Source: Polyangium mundeleinium
GTDB lineage: Bacteria; Myxococcota_A; Polyangia; Polyangiales; Polyangiaceae
NCBI RefSeq assembly: GCF_028369105.1
Contig: NZ_JAQNDO010000001.1
Location: 9,022,501 to 9,086,500 of the forward strand
Length of the DNA stretch: 64,000 bases
Direction: 5' to 3'
Below, piece by piece: positions 8,488 to 21,049 of the stretch. The notes under the pieces were generated by a model. That model did no database searches. It saw only the letters and a list, made by a program, of their open reading frames with translations, and was not told where the DNA came from. Within the stretch, counting starts at the first letter, position 1; each line of letters opens with the position of its first letter. The position numbers were made by a program, and so were the translations under genes.

Positions 8488-9153
8488 TCAGTCGCGCTTG
8501 CAGTCCTGGAAGACGAGCTGGGCCTGCACGGGCGCGGTGGGATCTTCGGGCGCTTCGCCGAGCTTCGCGGTGCGCACGCAATTGACGCCGTAAAACGTCG
8601 TGACATAACGATCGATGCCCTGCTGCGCGGCGGCGTAGGAGGAGAACGAGAGCGTCGCCACGCAGGAGTTTGTCCGGCAATCGAGCCCCTCGAGCGCGGT
8701 CCCGTTCGCGTTTTCTTGGACGAGCGTGTCCAGCGCCGGGCGCAACGCAGCGTTCGTCGTTTTGGACCACGCAGGGTCGACGGGCGCTTGCTCGTGGCGA
8801 TCGATCATCGACGCGACGACGGCCTCGAAGCGGCGGCGGGAATCCTCGCGCTCCGCAGGATCGGGGGGCGCATTCGTGGGGGCGAGCGAATCGATGCGCT
8901 CCTCCAGCGCCGAGAGCCGCGCCGTCGCCAAGCCGAGGGGAGCTTGGGGTGCTGTGGGCGCAGGCCCCTCGGTGCGTTTCGTGGGGAGCTCGGCCTGGGG
9001 CGCGGGCGCATCCTTGCTCGCAGCCAGCACGGCCGGTCGCGCGAGCAGCAGGGAGGAACCGACGCCGGCAACAATACCCAGGAGGGCGGGGAGGAACGAG
9101 CGGACGAGGAGAGGCGCGCCGCGATGCGCGTTTTCGGAATTCTTCGAGTTCAT
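8488..9153 (-). CDS. Membrane-anchored periplasmic protein, unknown function
   Basis: I do not recognise this 221-residue protein. A single uncleaved-looking helix near residues 17-38 (SFLPALLGIVAGVGSSLLLA) follows a short cytoplasmic tail. A Pro/Ala-rich linker and a ~150-residue globular part then follow, with four cysteines (LDCRTNSCVA, GVNCVR, FQDCKRD) that could form two disulfides outside the cytoplasm. The start at 9153 is chosen because AGGTGG lies six bases upstream; an earlier in-frame ATG at 9243 adds residues that do not fit a signal anchor. It stands alone between the ABC unit and the secreted-protein gene. Confidence 0.72.
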   Translation of the reverse strand: MNSKNSENAHRGAPLLVRSFLPALLGIVAGVGSSLLLARPAVLAASKDAPAPQAELPTKRTEGPAPTAPQAPLGLATARLSALEERIDSLAPTNAPPDPAEREDSRRRFEAVVASMIDRHEQAPVDPAWSKTTNAALRPALDTLVQENANGTALEGLDCRTNSCVATLSFSSYAAAQQGIDRYVTTFYGVNCVRTAKLGEAPEDPTAPVQAQLVFQDCKRD

Positions 9154-10069: not shown

Positions 10070-11482
10070 CTATCGCCGGAACCGCGTCGGGTCGATTCCG
10101 AACCGCTTCAGCCAGCGCTGGACTTGCATGCGTGCCTTGCCCATGGCCTTCGCGACCGCGGTGATATTGCCACCCTGTTCCTTGAGGAGCGCGATGAGCT
10201 CGTCCCGGAGCGCGGCCTCCTCGGCTGTGAGCCCTTCGAGCGCGCGCTGCACGGCCGGGGGGAGGTGTTCGAGCTCCACCACTCCTCCTTCCCCCGCGAG
10301 CACGACCGCCGTGCCGAGGCACTTCTCCAGCTCCCGCACGTTCCCCGGCCAGTCATGGCGGAGCATGGCCCTCGCCGCGCGCGGGTGGATCTGGATCCGC
10401 GCGGCCTGATCGGGTGGGAGGCGTGCGAGGATCGCGCCGGCGAGCAGGCCGAGGTCCTCCCGACGCGCACGCAGCGGGGGAAGCTCGACCTTGTGGCCGG
10501 CCAGGCGGTTCCAGAGATCGGCGCGAAATGCGCCGGCGGCGACCATTCGTTCGAGGGACCGATGGGTCGCGGCGATCACGCGGAGATCGACGGCGATGGA
10601 GCGCGTGCCGCCGATCGGACGGACCTCACGCTCCTGAAGGGTCCGCAGCAAGGCCGCCTGTGCGGGCGCGGGGAGATCGCCGATTTCGTCGAGGAACAAC
10701 GTGCCCCGGTCGGCGCTGCGGACGAGGCCGAGGCGATCCTCGGTCGCCCCCGAAAAAGCCCCCTTCTTGTGGCCGAAGAGCTCGGCCTCCACGAGGTCCT
10801 TCGGCAGGGCGCCACAATTGACCGCGACGAAATCGCCGGGACGCCCGGAGAGCGCGTGGAGGGCGCGCGCCATGACCTCCTTGCCGGTGCCGGTTTCGCC
10901 TTCGAGGATCACCGAGATCGTCGAACGCGCGATGGGAACAAGCCTTTCGAATACACGATGAAGCTGGGGGAGCACGGTCGCGAGGCCCGGGGCCGCTGGA
11001 CGCAACGCGGTCCGGTCGAGCACGGGGGGATCGTTCGGGTCGCAAGGAAGGGCTTCCCGGTAGAGGAAAAAAGTTTGGCCGAGCTCGATCAGGTCGCCAT
11101 CTTCGAGTTCATCCCGGGTCGTTCGAATGCCGTTGACGAATGTGCCGTTCTTGGATTTGGCGTCGTCGAGGACCCAGCGCTGGAGCAGCTTGCCGAGGCG
11201 CGCGTGGGTCGACGACATGCGGCGATCATCGGCGCGAATCGTGAGGCGGCGGGCGCTCGGGGCGTTCGTCGCTTCCATCTGTCGGGGGGATCCGCGGCCG
11301 ATTTCGAGCTCGTCGAGCTTCGCGAGCGATACGCGCGCGGGAGGCGCGAGGGGGCGGTGCGCCTCGAGGACGAGGAAGAGGTGGGGGCGGTGGTAGGTGT
11401 CGCCTACCTCCTTGGGCTCTTCGGTGGAGGAGAGCGTCCTGCTGTCCGGGCCGTCGATCATCGCGTTCGCTGCATACACCAT
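10070..11482 (-). CDS. FHA-domain sigma-54-dependent transcriptional activator
   Basis: A 470-residue enhancer-binding protein. An FHA phosphothreonine-binding domain (residues about 30-130; EIGRGS, RRMSSTHARLG, DDAKSKNGTFVNG) replaces a receiver. The AAA+ core follows with Walker A GETGTGKE, a sigma-54 contact loop GAFSGA, Walker B GTLFLDEIGD and the R-finger region. The C-terminal Fis-type helix-turn-helix is VAKAMGKARMQVQRWLKRFG. In myxobacteria this class is controlled by Ser/Thr kinases, and one is encoded 2 kb away (13386-16640). The frame is open to 11845, but that extension overlaps the divergent lipoprotein gene, so the ATG at 11482 is preferred; 11461 is a close alternative. GAFSGA instead of GAFTGA is a conservative change. 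Confidence 0.92.
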   Translation of the reverse strand: MVYAANAMIDGPDSRTLSSTEEPKEVGDTYHRPHLFLVLEAHRPLAPPARVSLAKLDELEIGRGSPRQMEATNAPSARRLTIRADDRRMSSTHARLGKLLQRWVLDDAKSKNGTFVNGIRTTRDELEDGDLIELGQTFFLYREALPCDPNDPPVLDRTALRPAAPGLATVLPQLHRVFERLVPIARSTISVILEGETGTGKEVMARALHALSGRPGDFVAVNCGALPKDLVEAELFGHKKGAFSGATEDRLGLVRSADRGTLFLDEIGDLPAPAQAALLRTLQEREVRPIGGTRSIAVDLRVIAATHRSLERMVAAGAFRADLWNRLAGHKVELPPLRARREDLGLLAGAILARLPPDQAARIQIHPRAARAMLRHDWPGNVRELEKCLGTAVVLAGEGGVVELEHLPPAVQRALEGLTAEEAALRDELIALLKEQGGNITAVAKAMGKARMQVQRWLKRFGIDPTRFRR

Positions 11483-11517
11483 CCGATCCCGAGCGTCGCC
11501 GCGGCGCGAAGACGTTG

Positions 11518-11545
11518 GTGCAACAAGGGGTGCAACACCGCAACG
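11518..11545 (+). promoter_or_regulatory. Candidate enhancer array: GCAAC-N7-GCAAC-N3-GCAAC
   Basis: Three GCAAC cores at 11520-11524, 11532-11536 and 11540-11544 have the same 7/3 spacing and the same orientation relative to their promoter as the array at 10029-10056. The last core ends 46 bases before the GG of the promoter at 11588-11604. It lies in the divergent region between the activator gene and the lipoprotein gene. Confidence 0.55.
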
Positions 11546-11587
11546 AGCTCTTGGAGGTCCCGGGCGTGGAGAAGAGCGCCAAACGGC

Positions 11588-11604
11588 TAGGCACGGGCCT
11601 TGCG
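11588..11604 (+). promoter_or_regulatory. Candidate sigma-54 promoter
   Basis: The sequence TAGGCACGGGCCTTGCG matches the sigma-54 consensus except for A in place of the T before GG and the final W. GG (11590-11591) and GC (11602-11603) have the correct 12-base register. The predicted start (11615) falls three bases before the ATG at 11618, so the transcript would be almost leaderless and would lack the GAGG upstream of that ATG. Confidence 0.55.
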
Positions 11605-11617
11605 TGAGGCGTGGGGC

Positions 11618-13363
11618 ATGAACGTTCGACGCTTTCTCGCCACGCTTGCCCTCGTGCCCGCGCTCTTCGTCATGGGGTGCGGAGCAGAAGATACGCTTGA
11701 AGAGGTCACGGACTCGACGCAGCAGGCCACGTACGGGCCCAACTTCGAGATGCCGCAGAATGGGCTCGACCCTGCCGCGGTCGAGTTGAATGACGCGCTC
11801 CTTTCGGAGGTCTGGCAGCATCCGCTCACGAGTGGTGGGTTCCAAGCCACCCTGTCGGCCAACCCGAACATTCAGAGTCTATTCAATCCGGGGCCTACGA
11901 GCGCCGCAAACCTCATGCAGTACATCGTTTCGTGCGCGCTTGACCCGGGACAGCATGTAACGGCCACTGTCAATGGCAAGAATGTCACTTGGAATGGCCA
12001 ATTTGGCCTTTGCGGTGTGGGGTCTACGTTTGGCAACTGGGGGGGCTTTCCGGCCAGTGAGAAGTGTAGCCAAATGGTATCGGCCTGTGTCCTTGCGCGG
12101 ATGAACGTTCTCGGCAGGCATGTCCCCATCTCGGTGCGTATCCCGGTCAATGGTTTTCCGCCTGCGCCCAAGGTCCGGGTTCAGACGAGGCTCCGTGACA
12201 GGACACTGGTCGGAAGCGGTTGGCAGCCGGAATTCGTGGGGATTTGCAGGCACGGCGAACCCGTGACGATGGCGCGTAGCGGAGCGCTCAAGGTGCGTGT
12301 ATGCAAAGGCATCCACGGATGTAACTACCGTGAACAGCCTCCGAGCCTCCCTGCATTTTCACCCCCCTATGCAGGATTCGTGGAAGAATTCGGCCTGGGC
12401 TCTGCCCACATTACGTTCACATGCCCCCATGACGCGGGAGCTGCGCCGCGCGACAAACCTGGTCATACTTACTTCAGCATCATGGTGGCACCGGAGAGCC
12501 CTGGGGGGGAGCTTCCACCGGATCCCATCGTGACGCCCATTTGTGGCGCTACCTATCCCGCGACAGAGGGCCAGGTGTTCACCTATCCGGAGGGCGCGTT
12601 CTATGGGAACATCTTCCCGACACCGGATGACGCAATCGATCGACGCGCGTGCTCCAGCGAGTTGTGGCAACACGACACCGCGTACCTTACCGGTCGGCTC
12701 TGTGCAGAACAAGATAGTCAGTGCTCCATTTCGACCGCCCCCTGTAGCGATACCTGCGTAGCATCAGGAAGCCTTTACGACCCCTGCGACGCGTGGCGCC
12801 CAGTCACCGTCTTCCTCAACGATCCCAACGCGCTTTCCAGCCAATCAAGTGACTCGGCAATCAACCCTCCCACCGACGATGATGGCACGCCCAACGCGTC
12901 ATGCGGCAATGGGAGTGGGGGTGGCCTTGACCATGAAACCCATGGCGGGGGCATCAATGGATCCACCTGCGAGAACGACGATGAGAGCGATATTGTTGCG
13001 TGCAATATCGGTCCCTGCGGCCACTCAGCCTGCCAGACCGGAAATGCGCTCACCGCCGGGTGCAGCCCTGTCGTGACGAGCATCTGCGCCGCGGATTCCT
13101 ACTGCTGCAACACGGCATGGGACGACATCTGCGTCAACGAGGTCCAGAGCGTGGCGAACAACCTGCAATGTGTCGCCGGCACCTGCGCTCACACGCTCTG
13201 CACCGAAGGCGCTCCTCTCACCTCGGGCTGCGACGTCCCTCCCCTCGCCTCCCCGGGCTGCGCAGCGAGCATCTGCGCCGTGGATCCCTATTGCTGCAAC
13301 ACGGCCTGGGACGACATCTGCGTGAGCGAAGTCCAGACCGTGTGCGGCAAGACCTGCAACTGA
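11618..13363 (+). CDS. Cys-rich lipoprotein with two C-terminal YCC-WDDIC modules
   Basis: A 581-residue exported protein. The signal sequence MNVRRFLATLALVPALFVMGC ends in a lipobox-like VMGC, so the mature protein is probably lipid-anchored at the outer membrane. The long central part is unrecognised. The C-terminus holds two ~55-residue Cys repeats, each with a CxxxxC start, ICAxDxYCCNTAWDDICVxEVQ and a closing cysteine; this module recurs in myxobacterial secreted proteins. Upstream lie a sigma-54-type promoter (11588-11604) and the GCAAC array shared with the gene at 9266-9880. The gene is divergent from the FHA activator and is a probable target of it. It converges on the kinase gene with 22 bases between stops. 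Confidence 0.82.
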   Translation: MNVRRFLATLALVPALFVMGCGAEDTLEEVTDSTQQATYGPNFEMPQNGLDPAAVELNDALLSEVWQHPLTSGGFQATLSANPNIQSLFNPGPTSAANLMQYIVSCALDPGQHVTATVNGKNVTWNGQFGLCGVGSTFGNWGGFPASEKCSQMVSACVLARMNVLGRHVPISVRIPVNGFPPAPKVRVQTRLRDRTLVGSGWQPEFVGICRHGEPVTMARSGALKVRVCKGIHGCNYREQPPSLPAFSPPYAGFVEEFGLGSAHITFTCPHDAGAAPRDKPGHTYFSIMVAPESPGGELPPDPIVTPICGATYPATEGQVFTYPEGAFYGNIFPTPDDAIDRRACSSELWQHDTAYLTGRLCAEQDSQCSISTAPCSDTCVASGSLYDPCDAWRPVTVFLNDPNALSSQSSDSAINPPTDDDGTPNASCGNGSGGGLDHETHGGGINGSTCENDDESDIVACNIGPCGHSACQTGNALTAGCSPVVTSICAADSYCCNTAWDDICVNEVQSVANNLQCVAGTCAHTLCTEGAPLTSGCDVPPLASPGCAASICAVDPYCCNTAWDDICVSEVQTVCGKTCN

Positions 13364-13385: not shown

Positions 13386-16300
13386 TCACCGCGCCCCGCC
13401 GCGCCCCTCCTGAACCAGCCGGCGCATCTCCGCCACCGCGGGGACCGTCTCATCCGCCACCGACCACGCATCCAGCACGCGATGCGCGAGCGCCCGGGCC
13501 TGCTCCTTCTCCCCACGCTTCGCCGCTCGACGCGCGGCGCGCACCAGCGCCAGGCTCGCCCCATTGAGCTCGCCAGAGCGATCGGCCATCGCAGCCTCCA
13601 CGCGGGCGACGAGCTCGCTCTCCCCCGTATGCTCGAACGTCTCGATCATCGGCTCGGCGAGGACCTCGACAAACGGACCCGGCGTCCGGAGCAAAGGTCG
13701 AAACGCGCGCGCCGCGCCCGCGAAGTCCCCCTTCGCATAACGCTCGGCCCCCTCCGTGAAGGCATCTGCGTCCGGGAGGGCGCTGAACGAGAGGCGCTGC
13801 CGGAGCTCACGGAACCGGGTGAAACAACGCCGGGAGACGGCCGGCGAGGCGTACGCACAGACGGCGGGGAGCCGGAGCGGGACGTCGACGTACGCGCCGT
13901 CGAGCGGCGGAGGCTCGGGGTCGAGGAATCGCTCCACGACGAGGTCGGCGATCTCCTGCGCGCGACCGAGGACGTGCGCGATCTGCAGGGCGCGCCAGGC
14001 GATCTCGAAGCGTTGCACGCGCAGCCAGCCGGCATAGTCCGCGGCAGGGAGCATGGCCCGCTTCGCCCGCGCGAGGGCAGCGCCGAATCGAGCCTCGCTT
14101 GCCTCGATGCGCACGAGGAGCAGATTGCTTTCCACGAAGTGGACGGCATGGCCGCCGGTCGCGAGCGCGAGCGCAATGCCTCGTGCCTCCTCGCGCGCGC
14201 CGGAGGCGAGGAGCTTGTCGGCGAGGGTATGGGCCACGGACGTGTCGAGGGGCGAGAGCGTATAGGCGCGCCGCGCATACACGAGTGCACGGTCCTTGTC
14301 ACCCGGGAGCTTCGCCTGAAACAGCCACCCATAGCTGTTCCAGGGCACCCATGCCTGCATCGCGCGCAGCGTCGGCGCGGCGCTCGACGCGCCATACGTC
14401 ACCGCGAGGAGCTGGAGCCAGGGCGCGCATCCCTCGCCGATCGGGTTCTTCGGCTCCGCTTGCACCGCGAGCAGCGATAGCTCCGCGGCCCGCTTCGGGT
14501 CGGGCGACTGGAGGAGGCACGAGAGGGTCGTCGCGAGCGTCGAGCGCCCGAGCGGCGTCGCCTCGCGCGCGAAGAGCCGCTCGAGCTCGGCGATCGTGGC
14601 CGGATCGTCCACCCGTCGCGCCACATGCTCGACACGCGCGCGCGCGGCGAGCTCGCCCGGGGATGCGGGATTGTTTCGCTGGGACAACCTCACCTCGGGC
14701 ATCGGGAGGCCGAGCGTATAGGCGCAGTGGCGGCGCTCGGCGGGCCCCAGCTCCGCGAGGTCGGCGCTCCTCGCCGCGACGTGGGAGCATTCGTCCGGGA
14801 GCCCGCCCGCGTTGTTGCTCATCGCTGCAGCAAGATCGAAGAGCGCGAGGGCGCTGCTCACGTCTCGGGCGCGCGAAAAGTCCGCCATCGTGGGGTCGAG
14901 TGCGGTCGCGACCGGGAGCGAGCCCCGCTCGGCGAGAGGGTTCATCGCGTCTCGTGTGGCCTCGTAGAGGGAACGCCCGGTGCCGATGGCATGATCGATA
15001 TCCCCCCCGTCGGGACGGCGGAGGGTGACCGTGATCCGGAAGCCGGCGTTCTCCCGGACAACCTGCCCCTCGGCATACGCTGCCGCCCGGCGACGGGCGG
15101 CTTCGATCGATTTCGCGCGGGCCTCGGGCGCGGCATAGGGATCCTCGGGGAACCGATCCACAGGCTGCCCCGGGAGCGCGAGGAGCTCTGCAGGGAGGAG
15201 CGTCCGCGTGGCGGAGCCGCCCAAAAGGACGCGCGCTCGGTCGCAAAAGAGAGACGCCGCCGCAGCGCCCATCCAGCCAGAGGGCTCGTCGATGCCCGAT
15301 GCCTCGAAGACGGGGCACGCGAGCACCGAAGACGTCGATTGCAAAGGGGAGACGACCGAAGGAGAGGGCACGGGCGGAGAAGACGCATCACGTTGGACGA
15401 ACCATGCGCCCCCGATGGCCAGAAGCAGGCCGCCGGCAATGGCCAGGCCCCGGACGCCCCACGCGCGCGGGCGGCCGGGTGCGGGCGGCGTCGGCGTCGG
15501 GAGCGCCCGCTCGACGGGGATTGCACTCCCTCCCTCGCGGGTGGCCACGGACGAATCGCTCTCCGACGTCGAATCCCCCGCCGTCGCGTCCTCCTGGGAC
15601 GCCGGCTCCGTTTCTCCCCAAGCGCTCTCTTCCGCGCCTGCGCGTTCCGCGCCGTCCTCCCTCCCGCCAGCCTCTTCCGTGGCGGCCACCGTCTCCGCCT
15701 CCGCCGCCGAGGGCTCGACGCCGAGGGCCGGAGAGGGCAAGGCGAACGTCGTGATGTCGGCCATCCCGAGCGCATCGCCGAGCGCGCGCACCGCGGCGGT
15801 TGCCGTGGCGAAACGCCGGTCCGGTTCGACGGCGGTCGTCTTTGCAAACCATGCATCGAAGCCCATGGGCAGAAGGACACCCTTCCTCGACGCGCGCGCT
15901 CTCGCTGGCTCCACCGGGCCGTAAGCCGCGCAGAGCGCGAAGGCGACGAGGTTGTCCTCTTCGAGCCTCTCGTCGGCCCAGTACGCCTCGCCGACGAGAA
16001 AGGTATAAGCCATCATCCCGAGCGCGTAAATGTCCGTCGCTGCCGAGACGCGATGGCCACGGAACTGCTCGGGCGCCATGTACAGCGGCGTCCCCACGGT
16101 CTGGGTCGCGCCTCCGCCGGCGCTGCCCTCGGCGACGATCTTCGCGACGCCGAAATCGAGGATCTTGATACGCCGCTCGCCATCCTCGCGCACGCTCAGG
16201 AATAGGTTCGCCGGCTTGAGATCACGATGGACGATCCCCGCTCCATGCGTCTTGTCGAGCGCGAGCGCCGTTTGATGGAGGCACGCGAGCGTCTCCTCGG

Positions 16301-16640
16301 GCGAAAATCGCCCCACACGCCGGAGGCATCGCCCGAGCTCCTCCCCACGAAGCAGCTCCATGACGAGGAACGGCACCCCTGTCGCCTCGTCGACCCCCGC
16401 GTCGAAGACTTCGACGAGGAATGGGCTTTCGATATGCGCGGTCACCCGCGCTTCGAGCGCGAACCGCCGCCGGAGCTCGGGGCGCTCGATGATATGGGAG
16501 AGCATCACCTTGAGCGCCCACCGGCGGTCCGTCCCGAGGTGACGAGCTTCGTACACCGCGCCCATGGCGCCCGCAGCGAGGCGGCGAATCAGCCGGTAAC
16601 GCCCGGCAAAGATCGCCCCTTCTCCCCCCTCGACGGACAT
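13386..16640 (-). CDS. Eukaryotic-type Ser/Thr protein kinase with periplasmic TPR-like region
   Basis: A 1084-residue membrane kinase. The N-terminal catalytic domain (about residues 12-275) carries ALKVM (ATP-binding lysine), IVHRDLKPANLFL (catalytic aspartate near 140), ILDFGVAKI and GTPLYMAPEQ. A Glu/Ala/Ser-rich juxtamembrane segment leads to one transmembrane helix near residue 400 (LAIAGGLLLAIGGAWFV). The remaining ~670 residues are outside the cytoplasm and look helical and TPR-like, without a clear enzymatic motif. The ATG at 16640 is used because GGGAG lies just upstream; the frame extends to a TTG at 16685. Its substrates are unknown. The FHA-type activator nearby is a plausible phospho-partner by position only. 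Confidence 0.93.
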   Translation of the reverse strand: MSVEGGEGAIFAGRYRLIRRLAAGAMGAVYEARHLGTDRRWALKVMLSHIIERPELRRRFALEARVTAHIESPFLVEVFDAGVDEATGVPFLVMELLRGEELGRCLRRVGRFSPEETLACLHQTALALDKTHGAGIVHRDLKPANLFLSVREDGERRIKILDFGVAKIVAEGSAGGGATQTVGTPLYMAPEQFRGHRVSAATDIYALGMMAYTFLVGEAYWADERLEEDNLVAFALCAAYGPVEPARARASRKGVLLPMGFDAWFAKTTAVEPDRRFATATAAVRALGDALGMADITTFALPSPALGVEPSAAEAETVAATEEAGGREDGAERAGAEESAWGETEPASQEDATAGDSTSESDSSVATREGGSAIPVERALPTPTPPAPGRPRAWGVRGLAIAGGLLLAIGGAWFVQRDASSPPVPSPSVVSPLQSTSSVLACPVFEASGIDEPSGWMGAAAASLFCDRARVLLGGSATRTLLPAELLALPGQPVDRFPEDPYAAPEARAKSIEAARRRAAAYAEGQVVRENAGFRITVTLRRPDGGDIDHAIGTGRSLYEATRDAMNPLAERGSLPVATALDPTMADFSRARDVSSALALFDLAAAMSNNAGGLPDECSHVAARSADLAELGPAERRHCAYTLGLPMPEVRLSQRNNPASPGELAARARVEHVARRVDDPATIAELERLFAREATPLGRSTLATTLSCLLQSPDPKRAAELSLLAVQAEPKNPIGEGCAPWLQLLAVTYGASSAAPTLRAMQAWVPWNSYGWLFQAKLPGDKDRALVYARRAYTLSPLDTSVAHTLADKLLASGAREEARGIALALATGGHAVHFVESNLLLVRIEASEARFGAALARAKRAMLPAADYAGWLRVQRFEIAWRALQIAHVLGRAQEIADLVVERFLDPEPPPLDGAYVDVPLRLPAVCAYASPAVSRRCFTRFRELRQRLSFSALPDADAFTEGAERYAKGDFAGAARAFRPLLRTPGPFVEVLAEPMIETFEHTGESELVARVEAAMADRSGELNGASLALVRAARRAAKRGEKEQARALAHRVLDAWSVADETVPAVAEMRRLVQEGRGGAR

Positions 16641-16799
16641 CGCTCCCGAAGACCTCGAGGGGAGGATACCCTGGCGCTCCTGCAAGGGTCTACGTTTTCA
16701 CAGCACGACGTCCCCGCGTCCGACGTCCCCATCGATAGCGGGGTTCCGTTACGCGACCTGTCACGGCCGTGCGACGGTCGTCGTGGCGGGACTGTCACG

Positions 16800-16841
16800 G
16801 TGTTGTGTCAGTGTCACGCGCGTGTGACACTGACACAACAC
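16800..16841. promoter_or_regulatory. Perfect 18-bp inverted repeat, candidate enhancer or operator
   Basis: Arms GTGTTGTGTCAGTGTCAC (16800-16817) and its exact complement (16824-16841) are separated by six bases. Further TGTCAC copies occur at 16759-16764 and 16793-16798. It lies between divergent genes, with its centre about 100 bases upstream of the predicted start of the promoter at 16895-16909. There is no T-run, and it is not at a gene end, so a binding site is more likely than a terminator. Confidence 0.6.
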
Positions 16842-16894
16842 CACAAGCACACCTCATCGCCTCGCTCCACGGCATTTCAAGGAGAATCGAGGCA

Positions 16895-16909
16895 TGGTAC
16901 GAGGGTTGC
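16895..16909 (+). promoter_or_regulatory. Candidate sigma-54 promoter
   Basis: TGGTACGAGGGTTGC matches the sigma-54 consensus core with one change (T for C after GG). GG (16896-16897) and GC (16908-16909) are in register. The predicted start near 16921 gives a 42-base leader before the ATG at 16963. Confidence 0.55.
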
Positions 16910-16962
16910 CTTGCGCCTGGAGGATCGTCTTGGAAACCCCAAGCACCGGACATCGAATCATC

Positions 16963-19900
16963 ATGCGCTTCCCCTTTAGAACCCGATGGTTTTCCCTGGC
17001 GGCAGCCTGTTCCTTTGGCCTGCTCGCCTCCTCCGCCTTCGCCGCCGGAAACTCGGTTCTGACCGGCACGGTGATCGATGCAGCGACGCGGAAGCCACTC
17101 GCCGACGTCGTCGTCACCGTGACGTCCCCCGCGCTGCAAGGCGAGCAGACCGTCGTGACCGACGCAGCCGGCAACTATCGCGTCCCGCAGCTCCCGCCGG
17201 GCGAATACACGATCCGGCTCGACGGGGACAAGCACAAGCCCCTCGCGCGCGGCGGAATCACGCTCCGCACGAGCAGCACGCTCCGCGCCAACCTGGAGCT
17301 CTTGCCGGACGAGCTGCGCGAGGAGATCGTGGTCGTCGCGAGGCCCCCGACGATCGACATCGGGTCGACGACGACGGGCGTGATCGTCGATTCGGATCTT
17401 TCGCATCGCCTCGCGGTGGCCCCGCCGGGAGGTCGCGCCTCGGCCATACGATCCTTCGAAAGCCTCGGCGCGCTCGCGCCCGGCGCACAGCCGACCCCCC
17501 TCGGCTTTGCCATCAACGGCTCCTCGGCCCCCGAAAACCGATTCCAGATCGACGGCGTCTCCGTGGGCAGCGCCTCGGACGGCATCAACGACACGCCGCT
17601 TTCGCTCGAATTCGTCCGGGAAGTCAACGTCGCCACGGGCGGATACATGCCGGAGTACGGCCGAACCACCGGTGGTGTGTTCGACGTCGTCACGAAATCG
17701 GGCGGCAATGAATTTCACGGGTCGATCTTCGGCAGCTTCACGCCGGGCGCGTTCGAGGGGCGCCGAAAGCCCGTGCGCGCGCAGGGCACGGTCGTCGGCG
17801 TCGATCAAAAGCTCGGCGCGATGCGTGACTTCGGGTTCGAGCTGGGTGGCCCTCTCATGAAGGATCGCCTCTGGTTTTACGCGGGCTTGAACGTGGCCCT
17901 CCAGGACCTCGACATCGTGCGTTCGCTGAACCGCTTGCGGTACGAGACGAACGCCGACGGGTCCTTGAAGCTCGACGCGAACGGCAACCCCATCAGCCTT
18001 CGAGACGAATACGGCTTTCAGGTCACCGAACCCATCGAGGGCGGGACGCGCAACTACGTCGCGTCGAAAGAGACGTTGCAGTACATCGGCAAGCTGACGT
18101 GGCTCATCAACCCGTCGCACACGTTGACGTTGTCCGTGTTCGGCTCGCCCACGTGGTCGGGCGGGAACGGGCGGATCTCGCTCAATGGGGTCTCGGGCCA
18201 GATGACGACGATCAACACGAACTTGCTGGAAGGCGAATACGCGGCCTTCGGGAGGCGGGAAGAGCAGGTGATCAACACGGTCTCGCTCAAGCTCTCGTCG
18301 GCCTTCCTGAACAAGAGGCTCCTGGTCGACACGACGGTCGGATACCATCACGCCTACTCCAACCGCCTCCCGGTCGACGGAGCGGGGATCGGGAGCGGCC
18401 AGGGGCTCGACAAGGTCCCCGGTGTCTCGTGGACGCGGGGCGCACCGCATTCCATCGCGGATTTCGAGAATCTGCCGGCGGGGAGTGGTTGTGAGCCCAA
18501 GGGGTCGACGAACGTCATCTACTGCCCGGTGCGCGCCTACCTGACGGGGGGGCCCGGGAACGTCAACGAGTCCATCACGAACCGTTTCCAGGGGCGCTCT
18601 GTCGTCACGTACCTGCTCAACGCATTCGGGCAACACGTCATCAAGGCAGGACTCGACATCGAGGTGTCGAACAGCCTGTTCGCTCGGGCGAACACCGGGA
18701 ACGTGTGGTTCTCCGAGACGTACGATGGTTCCGCGTGGCAGGTCTGGCGCATCGGAAACCTGACGAGCCCGGACGACGTGTACGTACCCAAGCTGCAATC
18801 CCCCACGACGCATTCCACCATCGTCGGCGGTTTCGTTCAGGATAGCTTCACGTTCCTGGACCGGGTCACGGTGAATGCAGGCTTGCGGTACGACGCGCAG
18901 ATGATGTCGAGCAGCGAGGGGGTGGGCATGGTGCTCCCCAACCAATGGTCTCCGCGCGTGGGAGCCATCTACGACTTCACCGGCCAGGGACGGTCGAAGC
19001 TCTTCGCCAGCTACGCACGGTATTACGAGAACGTGCCCCTCGGCATGGCCGAGGGCTTGTTCGTCCAGCGGCCCTTCACCGTATCCGCCGTGTCGAGCTC
19101 CGTGTGTGACCCGACCGATCCCGCGAAGGTCGAGGCCTGCCTGGACCCGAAGAACCGACTCACGTACGGGGCGCCCTCCTCGCCCAACCGGCAATGGGGC
19201 TTTTATTACGGGGACCGTGCGCCGGTGGATCCGGAGCTCGAGGCGCAATCGATGGACGAGATCACCGCAGGCGGCGAGTATCAAGTCTTCAGCGATGCGC
19301 GTGTGGGCGCGAGCTACACGCACCGGTCGATCCACCGCGTCATCGAGAACATGAGCCGCGACGAAGGGACCTCGTTCTTCGTGGGCAATCCCGGGCACGG
19401 CGCGGCGTCCGACTTCCCCGAAGCGCGGCGCGATTACGACGCCGTGACGTTGTTCTTCCAGAAGTCGTTCTCCGAGGGGTGGCTCGCGCTGGCGAGCTAC
19501 ACGGCGTCCTATCTCCGTGGCAACTACCCCGGGCTCGCCTCGGGGTCGGGGTCCTGGCCGTCCCCTCATACCCTCTCCGACTTCGACCTCCTGTCGCTCC
19601 TGCCGAACCGGGATGGCCCGCTTCCTGGAGATCGGCGCCATTCCGTCAAGCTCTACGGCGCCAAAGAGTTCGCGCTCCCGAAAAACATCCGCATCAACAT
19701 CGGAATGAGCTACACCGGCACGTCGGGGGCGCCGCTCGATGTTCTCGGCGCTCATCCCTACTATGGAAGAGGCGCCGCGTTCATTCTGCCTCGGGGCGCG
19801 GGCGGCAACTTGCCCTGGATCCATAGCGTCGATTCGAACCTCGCGGTCGGCTACAAGATCAGCAAGGACAGCACGCTCTCCGTGAACGTGGACGTGTTCA

Positions 19901-20163
19901 ACCTGTTCAACTTCCAGGCCGAGACCAGCCGTGACCAGTCCTTCACGTACGCGAACGTCCGGCCCATCGACGGCGGGACGACGACGGATCTGCCCGAGAA
20001 GGGCGAATCGGCATGCGCGACCGGCGCGGGGTGCCGGTACAAACTCGTGAATTTCGAGGACGGCTCGCCGTTCGATCCTGCCAACCGAAACCCCAACTAC
20101 GGCAGCCCCACCTCGTACCAGGCGCCGAGGACGATCCGCATGGGCGTCCGGTTGACCTTCTGA
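16963..20163 (+). CDS. TonB-dependent outer-membrane receptor, Oar-like
   Basis: A 1066-residue outer-membrane protein. A signal peptide (WFSLAAACSFGLLASSAFAA) is followed by a carboxypeptidase-regulatory-like beta-sandwich (TGTVIDAATRKPLADVVVTV, residues about 30-110). A plug domain (QIDGVSVGSASDGINDTPLS, GGYMPEYGRTTGGVFDVVTKSGGN) and a large beta-barrel ending in a C-terminal aromatic (RMGVRLTF) come next. This layout is that of Oar and related TonB-dependent transporters of myxobacteria, which move large substrates or secrete proteins. The ATG at 16963 is preferred; an upstream in-frame ATG at 16894 lies inside the promoter candidate. It heads an operon with a lipoprotein (22 bases downstream) and a small protein. 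Confidence 0.93.
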   Translation: MRFPFRTRWFSLAAACSFGLLASSAFAAGNSVLTGTVIDAATRKPLADVVVTVTSPALQGEQTVVTDAAGNYRVPQLPPGEYTIRLDGDKHKPLARGGITLRTSSTLRANLELLPDELREEIVVVARPPTIDIGSTTTGVIVDSDLSHRLAVAPPGGRASAIRSFESLGALAPGAQPTPLGFAINGSSAPENRFQIDGVSVGSASDGINDTPLSLEFVREVNVATGGYMPEYGRTTGGVFDVVTKSGGNEFHGSIFGSFTPGAFEGRRKPVRAQGTVVGVDQKLGAMRDFGFELGGPLMKDRLWFYAGLNVALQDLDIVRSLNRLRYETNADGSLKLDANGNPISLRDEYGFQVTEPIEGGTRNYVASKETLQYIGKLTWLINPSHTLTLSVFGSPTWSGGNGRISLNGVSGQMTTINTNLLEGEYAAFGRREEQVINTVSLKLSSAFLNKRLLVDTTVGYHHAYSNRLPVDGAGIGSGQGLDKVPGVSWTRGAPHSIADFENLPAGSGCEPKGSTNVIYCPVRAYLTGGPGNVNESITNRFQGRSVVTYLLNAFGQHVIKAGLDIEVSNSLFARANTGNVWFSETYDGSAWQVWRIGNLTSPDDVYVPKLQSPTTHSTIVGGFVQDSFTFLDRVTVNAGLRYDAQMMSSSEGVGMVLPNQWSPRVGAIYDFTGQGRSKLFASYARYYENVPLGMAEGLFVQRPFTVSAVSSSVCDPTDPAKVEACLDPKNRLTYGAPSSPNRQWGFYYGDRAPVDPELEAQSMDEITAGGEYQVFSDARVGASYTHRSIHRVIENMSRDEGTSFFVGNPGHGAASDFPEARRDYDAVTLFFQKSFSEGWLALASYTASYLRGNYPGLASGSGSWPSPHTLSDFDLLSLLPNRDGPLPGDRRHSVKLYGAKEFALPKNIRINIGMSYTGTSGAPLDVLGAHPYYGRGAAFILPRGAGGNLPWIHSVDSNLAVGYKISKDSTLSVNVDVFNLFNFQAETSRDQSFTYANVRPIDGGTTTDLPEKGESACATGAGCRYKLVNFEDGSPFDPANRNPNYGSPTSYQAPRTIRMGVRLTF

Positions 20164-20185: not shown

Positions 20186-21049
20186 ATGATTCGCCCGAAC
20201 CCCCCCAAGTCGATCGCCCTCGGGGCCTGTGCCCTCCTGTTCACGGCCGCGTTCGGCGCGTCCTGCGAGCAGCCACCGCTGCTCTGCGAGGTCGCGAGCA
20301 GCGCCTATCTCGTGAAGTACTACCCCAAGGAGGGCGGCAACGATTGTATCCAGGTGCCCGGGGAGCGGGTCGGCATGTCCGTGTACAATCCGCCGAAGGG
20401 AGACGACAGGGAGATCGATGCCACCCAGGCGACGGTCGCGATCCAGGCGCATTCGATGGGCGTGCTGGCGGACAGTGCCAGCGCAACGGCGAGCGCAACG
20501 GACCCGGACGCGAATCACAAGCAGTATTCCCTGGGTGCGTACGCCGTGCGACCGGACGCCGATGATTTCTGCGCGGCATCGAGCCTCTCGGTCGCCGAGC
20601 AGCACATCCCGGAGACGGCCTATACGGACGCGGACGGCAATCCGGCCATCTACCCCGAGACGCGCCTCGCCTACGAATGGCGGGATGTACGCGTGTACAT
20701 GACGTTCGCGACGCCGGGGAACGCCGCGACGGGCGAGGTGACCATCACCCGGGAGGACGAGGATCCGGTGACGGGCGACCGCGCGACGTGCACGACGACG
20801 TACGTCGCGAGCGCCCTGTTTCCCATCGTCGGCTGCGAAGCGGTGGACGACACGGGCCAGGCGACAGGGATGCCCGACGACACGCGCTGCTGCGCCACCG
20901 CCGATCCTTCGCAGGGGCGCCCCTTTGGTTCCGGCATTCACCCGGATTTCAAGGTGAAGTGTGACCCCGAGCTTTTGTCGTGCGTGCTCGACTGGAAGCC
21001 CGGGGAGTCCTTCCCACCGCTCGGGAAGAATTCATTCTGCGGAGGCTGA
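20186..21049 (+). CDS. Lipoprotein linked to the TonB receptor, unknown function
   Basis: A 287-residue protein with a lipoprotein-type signal (ALLFTAAFGASC). The mature part is rich in cysteines (CEQPPLLCEV, NDCIQV, FCAASS, ATCTTTY, GCEAVDD, RCCATAD, VKCDPELLSCVL), suggesting several disulfides. No family is recognised. It starts 22 bases after the receptor stop with a GAGGAG ribosome site. It is therefore probably co-transcribed and may act as a surface-exposed or periplasmic accessory to the receptor; that role is inferred from position. Confidence 0.8.
   Translation: MIRPNPPKSIALGACALLFTAAFGASCEQPPLLCEVASSAYLVKYYPKEGGNDCIQVPGERVGMSVYNPPKGDDREIDATQATVAIQAHSMGVLADSASATASATDPDANHKQYSLGAYAVRPDADDFCAASSLSVAEQHIPETAYTDADGNPAIYPETRLAYEWRDVRVYMTFATPGNAATGEVTITREDEDPVTGDRATCTTTYVASALFPIVGCEAVDDTGQATGMPDDTRCCATADPSQGRPFGSGIHPDFKVKCDPELLSCVLDWKPGESFPPLGKNSFCGG

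Follow-up and report, generated by a model that had tools for sequence, protein, structure and literature searches.

The -24/-12 consensus of sigma-54 promoters is GG-N10-GC, in TGGCACG-N4-TTGC-like sequences. Myxobacteria encode dozens of sigma-54 activators and many Ser/Thr kinases; to our knowledge, few of these activators or kinases have a known site or regulon. Myxobacterial FHA-type enhancer-binding proteins combine an FHA domain, an AAA+ domain and a Fis-like helix-turn-helix (HTH), and their control is ascribed to Ser/Thr kinases; Jelsbak et al. reportedly described such proteins in Myxococcus xanthus in 2005. Among titles and the starts of abstracts, our literature search turned up neither a comparable binding motif nor a comparable regulon for FHA-type enhancer-binding proteins, and a literature string search for the dyad sequence considered here returned no paper.

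The closest arrangements lie elsewhere. The GcsR boxes of Pseudomonas aeruginosa gcs2 are described as three dyads of 18 bp in tandem, TGTAACG-N4-CGTTCCG, which the enhancer-binding protein GcsR binds 5′ of an RpoN site (PMC4894688), and TyrR boxes as TGTAAA-N6-TTTACA with G-N14-C, in strong/weak pairs that are bound cooperatively (PMC4374768). The window, by which we mean the whole 64-kb stretch of DNA analysed, likewise holds three 18-bp dyads, of TGTCACG-N4-CGTGACA type, upstream of a sigma-54 promoter (compare PMC4894688), and the dyads of Polyangium share the 18-bp geometry with G-N14-C (PMC4374768). By analogy, then, the dyad-promoter architecture resembles that of GcsR/TyrR boxes. GcsR, however, is presented as glycine-responsive, TyrR-like and known for one operon (PMC4894688), whereas the candidate regulator proposed below combines an FHA domain with a Ser/Thr kinase encoded next to it and with targets that are dispersed. 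The TyrR promoters described in the cited text are of sigma-70 type with aromatic amino acid cofactors (PMC4374768), whereas the dyads here are accompanied by sigma-54-like promoters. Against the TyrR family model the candidate scored 207.5 bits where the cut-off is 576, and its N-terminus is an FHA domain. It is like the myxobacterial FHA-type proteins in its FHA, AAA+ and Fis-like HTH layout, but its Polyangium copies read GAATGA.

Taken as a whole, our analysis makes it probable that positions 16759-16829 are a UAS belonging to a regulon for exported proteins in Polyangium, read by a candidate FHA activator that its neighbouring kinase would control. Three 18-bp dyads would make up this UAS; their centres lie about 75-130 bp 5′ of a sigma-54 promoter that would drive a TonB-receptor/lipoprotein operon. 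The Fis-type helix of the candidate, SRQLLHRL, would bind tandem dyads as dimers and so lead to ring assembly, and its FHA domain would probably be switched by phosphothreonine from the adjoining Ser/Thr kinase. The receptor UAS would be one site of the wider regulon for exported proteins. The dyads, the promoters, their conservation and the joint occurrence of activator, kinase and dyads are observed; dyad binding, the phospho-switch and activation by the candidate are steps that we infer from sequence.

Dyads and promoter at the receptor operon

The features of the window on which the argument draws are as follows.

10070..11845, minus strand: FHA-AAA+-HTH sigma-54 activator (GAFSGA), dismissed as the master regulator behind the dyads
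13386..16685, minus strand: membrane Ser/Thr kinase, divergent from the receptor and not beside the receptor ortholog L111
16759..16776, unstranded: distal dyad TGTCACGGCCGTGCGACG, weak (PWM score 15.1)
16793..16810, unstranded: dyad 1, TGTCACGGTGTTGTGTCA (PWM score 18.6), with 1-3 mismatches in six other receptor copies
16799..16842, unstranded: perfect inverted repeat, perfect solely in the window genome among the eight copies compared
16812..16829, unstranded: dyad 2, exact TGTCAC-N6-GTGACA (PWM score 27.3), 19 bp from dyad 1
16895..16909, plus strand: sigma-54 -24/-12 element TGGTACGAGGGTTGC, identical in the paralog (L022/L089) and the ortholog (L083)
16963..20163, plus strand: target gene, a TonB-receptor-like outer-membrane protein with a carboxypeptidase-regulatory-like N-domain (domain matches)
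20186..21049, plus strand: putative lipoprotein, the gene after the receptor, with similar genes 3′ of the receptor in L111 and L172

The original prediction took a long palindrome, with 18-bp arms and a 6-base spacer at 16800-16841, as the enhancer of a sigma-54 promoter. The repeat is real: the inner 18-bp arms GTGTTGTGTCAGTGTCAC and GTGACACTGACACAACAC enclose the spacer GCGCGT, and the exactly complementary arms in fact run to 19 bp (16799-16842). Scanning the 64 kb for arms of at least 14 bp and spacers of at most 20 recovered this perfect inverted repeat alone, and three Markov-shuffled windows held none at arm 14. The promoter also lies where it was claimed to lie, with TGGTACGAGGGTTGC, a -24/-12 element of sigma-54 type, 53 bp 5′ of the receptor ATG (16963) and the palindrome centre (16820.5) about 100 bp 5′ of the start predicted by the -12 element. 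The divergent gene was confirmed as a Ser/Thr kinase by domain match.

Comparison of receptor copies shifts the functional unit from the palindrome to the dyads. Five of the six Polyangium genomes hold eight copies of at least 79% identity. In seven of these copies dyads and a TGGTAC-type -24/-12 element stand immediately 5′ of the gene, with 0-1 mismatches in dyad 2 and 1-3 in dyad 1; the dyads fall within the span of roughly 60-150 bp upstream that marks an enhancer of a sigma-54 promoter, and they are conserved together with the promoter. A genome search found the paralogous receptor (L003/L022) 2.2 Mb away with TGTCACGACGGCGTGTCA-G-TGTCACGCGCGCGTGACA and an identical TGGTACGAGGGTTGC. At the window receptor and at its paralog alike, the promoter has two dyads of 18 bp, TGTCAC-N6-GTGACA, set 19 bp apart, and the weak third at 16759 belongs to the window; in L083, L085 and L086 dyads with 2-3 mismatches also stand 34 bp from dyad 1, as the distal dyad of the window does. 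Identity between the palindrome arms, by contrast, is complete over 18 bp in the window (18/18) but falls to 15/18 in the 94% ortholog and to 9-13/18 in the six other copies. Since the outer arms are not conserved, the palindrome is dyad 2 plus flanking half-sites, and by this comparison the conserved unit is the 18-bp dyad, for which 65 sites give the consensus TGTCACG-N4-CGTGACA. The long palindrome as a functional unit is thus not supported. Its absence upstream of orthologous receptors had been set as a refuting test; the perfect arms are indeed not kept there, but the dyads and the -24/-12 element are.

At the eighth copy, L084, no dyads lie directly upstream of the receptor; they are found at L172:8527/8546, with TGGTACGGGTGTTGCT at 8626, before a kinase gene, and the gene run 3′ of them is kinase, receptor, lipoprotein. 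The kinase encoded there is paralogous to that of the regulator cluster (score 809 over nearly the full length) and not to the window kinase. Its position between dyads and receptor in Polyangium sp. 15x6 (G005; L172:8527-16073) suggests that kinase and receptor form an operon under the same control.

More distant receptors (46-50% identity) had no such dyads within 350 bp in the 11 plus-strand copies, a count that leaves out the minus-strand matches L096, L099, L103 and L105 as well as L104, L106, L107 and L108. Five of the distant receptors (L093, L094, L097, L098 and L102) have in common a sigma-54-like element of TGGCACGGTCGCTGC type (TGGCACG-type) without dyads and are probably under another activator.

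Dyads, sigma-54 promoters and target genes across Polyangium

We compared the window genome (G000) with five other Polyangium genomes, the six including P. fumosum DSM 14668, Polyangium sp. 15x6, y55x31 and 6x1. Each holds 12-27 dyads with at most one mismatch (20 in G003 and 27 in G005), against 0-2 matches to the reversed pattern. Single dyads at this threshold lack specificity: 12, 8 and 6 occur in G043, G024 and G008 respectively, genomes in which the closest match to the candidate regulator reaches 44-57%. The tandem form is specific. It gave 23 strand-wise matches (19 places) in 6/6 Polyangium genomes and 6 matches in 5/73 other genomes, while a tandem control pattern matched once in 79 genomes; recurrent spacings are 19-20, 23 and about 43 bp. 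A scan of 755 kb from Polyangium loci away from the sites gave a single dyad scoring at least 11. The PWM was derived from the same Polyangium loci that were scanned, so that the Sorangium, G036 and G023 loci described below are the only independent test.

The dyads adjoin sigma-54-like promoters genus-wide. A sigma-54-like score of at least 10 was found 25-160 bp downstream of 36 of the 51 dyad clusters, compared with 2.1% of 3510 random windows and 8/400 windows upstream of genes. Counted by homology group the figure is 16/25, and in the window genome alone 8/18. The scoring weights were home-made from the consensus given above. The 51 clusters comprise all 18 of the window genome, every exact site from the five other Polyangium genomes and, from G003 and G004, six sites with one mismatch, which were partly chosen as tandem with their promoters unseen at the time; other one-mismatch sites were left out. 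Because dyads and -24/-12 elements occur together at 8/8 close receptor copies, and because the promoter link holds for 36/51 clusters against about 2% of controls, the enhancer role of the dyads is strongly supported by comparison. In this form the enhancer claim of the original prediction stands.

The remaining 15 clusters score below 10, among them L024, L025, L028, L029, L033 and L035 of the window genome, which are probably chance dyads or sites of other regulators. One dyad, TGTCACCGTCCTGTAACA, recurs at L033:8001 and L121:10537, and again in G002 and G003; no sigma-54-like promoter accompanies it, and it is perhaps the site of another regulator. At L132:8001-8037 two exact dyads lie 19 bp apart with no sigma-54-like promoter of at least 10 on either side.

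Target genes mostly encode proteins with what look like export-type N-termini. An N-terminal hydrophobic segment above threshold was found in 37/42 promoter-gene pairs against 176/458 other genes of the same loci, and a lipobox near the segment in 17/42 against 69/458, with more lipoproteins visible by eye; the screen was home-made, the 42 pairs include orthologs and a few repeats, and the targets were trimmed at the promoter while the controls were not, which makes this a rough comparison. Among the tested targets are TonB-receptor, trypsin, subtilase, beta-lactamase-like, RCC1, RHS/SpvB-like and PDZ domains, and the other tested targets matched no Pfam family. Such targets fit the proposal, as put forward in the cited text, that sigma-54 controls mainly the bacterial exterior (PMC3162934). 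At L026:8101-15192 a dyad/sigma-54 site precedes the gene of a 2363-aa SpvB/FG-GAP/RHS-repeat protein, as it does in P. fumosum (L116).

The candidate FHA activator and its GAATGA loop

The most likely reader of the dyads is encoded outside the window; it is the following gene and not the activator of the window.

L021:2238-3659 (G000:C1:1028022-1029437), about 8 Mb from the window: candidate FHA-AAA+-Fis activator (domain matches)

The AAA+ family of sigma-54 activators has 75 matches in the window genome. The candidate has both the Sigma54_activat AAA+ domain (PF00158, 206.6 bits) and a Fis-type HTH (HTH_8, 22.6 bits, cut-off 22), besides an FHA domain (55.5 bits). A Ser/Thr kinase gene starts 8 bp 3′ of it, and the two genes are conserved together as neighbours. 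Orthologs of 86-97% are present in the five other Polyangium genomes, and in 6/6 the dyads lie 4.3-5.4 kb from the activator. In one of these genomes (G001) a second copy of a kinase/lipoprotein pair adjoins the regulator cluster (L136:70-4194).

The same association extends beyond the genus. At the loci of the nearest non-Polyangium relatives (L169, L171, L184, L185, L186 and L187), all picked by activator match and not by dyads, dyads were found within about 5 kb in 6/6. Five of the six have the helix SRQLVHRL, and L186, a Sorangium MAG contig, ends after SRQ with dyads present; a full-length kinase homolog occurs at all five loci that are long enough. Sorangium cellulosum So ceGT47, So0157-2 and So ce26, together with G023 and G036, thus combine SRQLVHRL, the same kinase adjoining the activator, and dyads. 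Relatives with other helices (L170, L173, L188 and L189) had no dyads in the locus DNA scanned; among the copies without dyads are those of G008 (SRSLVYRL) and the paralog of the window genome (SRQFLHKL). The loci of 30 other activators with similar HTHs, scanned for 1.5 kb on each side, yielded one stray dyad (L221). It is this co-occurrence of activator, kinase and dyads in Polyangium, Sorangium and other genera that recommends the candidate as reader. Points against it are the GAATGA loop, the lack of specificity of single dyads, the promoterless clusters and the helix of L209 in G004. If the candidate is the reader, one FHA activator-kinase pair gains a candidate operator, a list of exported-protein targets and a testable signalling loop.

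The loop deserves separate consideration. In place of GAFTGA, the sigma-54 contact loop of the Polyangium candidate reads GAATGA in 6/6 copies (L021, L110, L117, L127, L134 and L136), with one residue deleted just after it in all six, while GAFTGA is kept in Sorangium, G023, G036, G008 and the paralog copies. Among activators in the loci collected, 44 read GAFTGA, 14 GAFSGA and 6 GAATGA, the last being the Polyangium candidates; 25 entries, not deduplicated, were unmatched by the pattern used. According to the cited texts, the GAFTGA phenylalanine is consistently essential for activation, with tyrosine in a few cases (PMC7057263), and most GAFTGA mutants fail to activate (PMC7175178). The HTH region is nevertheless 98-100% identical within Polyangium, so that the candidate seems to bind DNA under strong constraint.

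These observations lend themselves to a rival explanation, possible though doubtful to us, in which the FHA protein binds the dyads in Polyangium and is not itself a sigma-54 activator, acting as a silencer or competitor, or needing a GAFTGA partner in mixed rings in order to work. The altered loop and the deletion beside a constant HTH speak for it. So do precedents, TyrR, DhaR and HupR being described as relatives with a non-functional GAFTGA loop (PMC3162934), and the near-identical helix of a GAFTGA paralog in G004. Against it, the dyads lie at enhancer distance and not over the promoter, the Walker A/B and arginine-finger regions of the candidate look intact by eye, and GAFTGA paralogs (52-56%) occur in G000, G002, G004 and G005 but were not found at 52% or above in G001 and G003, both of which have sites.

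That absence led us to reject a GAFTGA paralog as the true activator in general; one may still serve in the other four genomes, most plausibly in G004. There the paralog L209 (G004:C53:552791-554200) reads GAFTGA and has the helix SRQLAHRL; among Polyangium genomes it is found in G004 only, has no dyads within 1.5 kb and is a possible mixed-ring partner. A compensating change in RpoN region I was also rejected: the first 30-odd residues equal those of G023, whose activator reads GAFTGA, and the LQF/LVQ variants are common to G023 and G008. Each of the six Polyangium genomes gave one rpoN match and no second one.

Returning to the candidate as reader, we entertain, tentatively and as a real possibility, that the dyad-reading FHA activator of Polyangium lost its aromatic sigma-54 contact, kept its helix, and would drive or gate a sigma-54 regulon non-canonically, through mixed rings, anti-activation or a new sigma-54 contact. 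The helix is frozen, and tandem sites at sigma-54 promoters are commoner in Polyangium than among the 73 relatives searched. A loop fixed as GAATGA raises the question of whether the phenylalanine of GAFTGA is truly indispensable.

Other readers and other roles for the dyads

The original prediction saw no matching regulator in the window and suggested that the divergent kinase might act on the same controller. The window does encode one, the FHA, AAA+ and HTH activator at 10070-11845, about 5 kb from the dyads and with a GAFSGA loop, and in G004 its ortholog lies about 9 kb, and the kinase ortholog about 3.5 kb, from tandem dyads. That this activator and the divergent kinase read the dyads is nonetheless improbable. 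Its orthologs (86-90%) occur in G001, G002 and G004 only; in G003 and G005, for all their sites, the best match is 59-60%, to a different family that is also present in the window genome. Moreover, no dyads were found in 16 kb around the orthologs of G001 and G002, and we therefore rejected it as the reader. Its recognition helix differs from that of the candidate, and in P. fumosum, within about 8 kb on either side of the 94% ortholog of the receptor (L111), neither an activator nor the divergent kinase was found. The suggested part for this kinase is thus not supported as put; the evidence points instead to the kinase of the regulator cluster, which has a paralog 5′ of the receptor, under dyads, in one strain.

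Symmetric 18-bp dyads by themselves name no regulator family, and a regulator of another family (CRP-like, for example) could bind them, with an indirect sigma-54 association. We think this unlikely, as the dyads are linked to -24/-12 elements and co-occur with one activator type across genera. That the palindrome, although the strongest perfect inverted repeat of the window, is a terminator, recombination or cruciform element with no regulatory role is very improbable, given that dyads and promoter are conserved where the perfect arms are not and that the layout recurs at the paralog 2.2 Mb distant.

In G001, G002 and G004 the orthologs of the window kinase and of its FHA activator are likewise neighbours, and the pair may represent a second FHA activator-kinase module.
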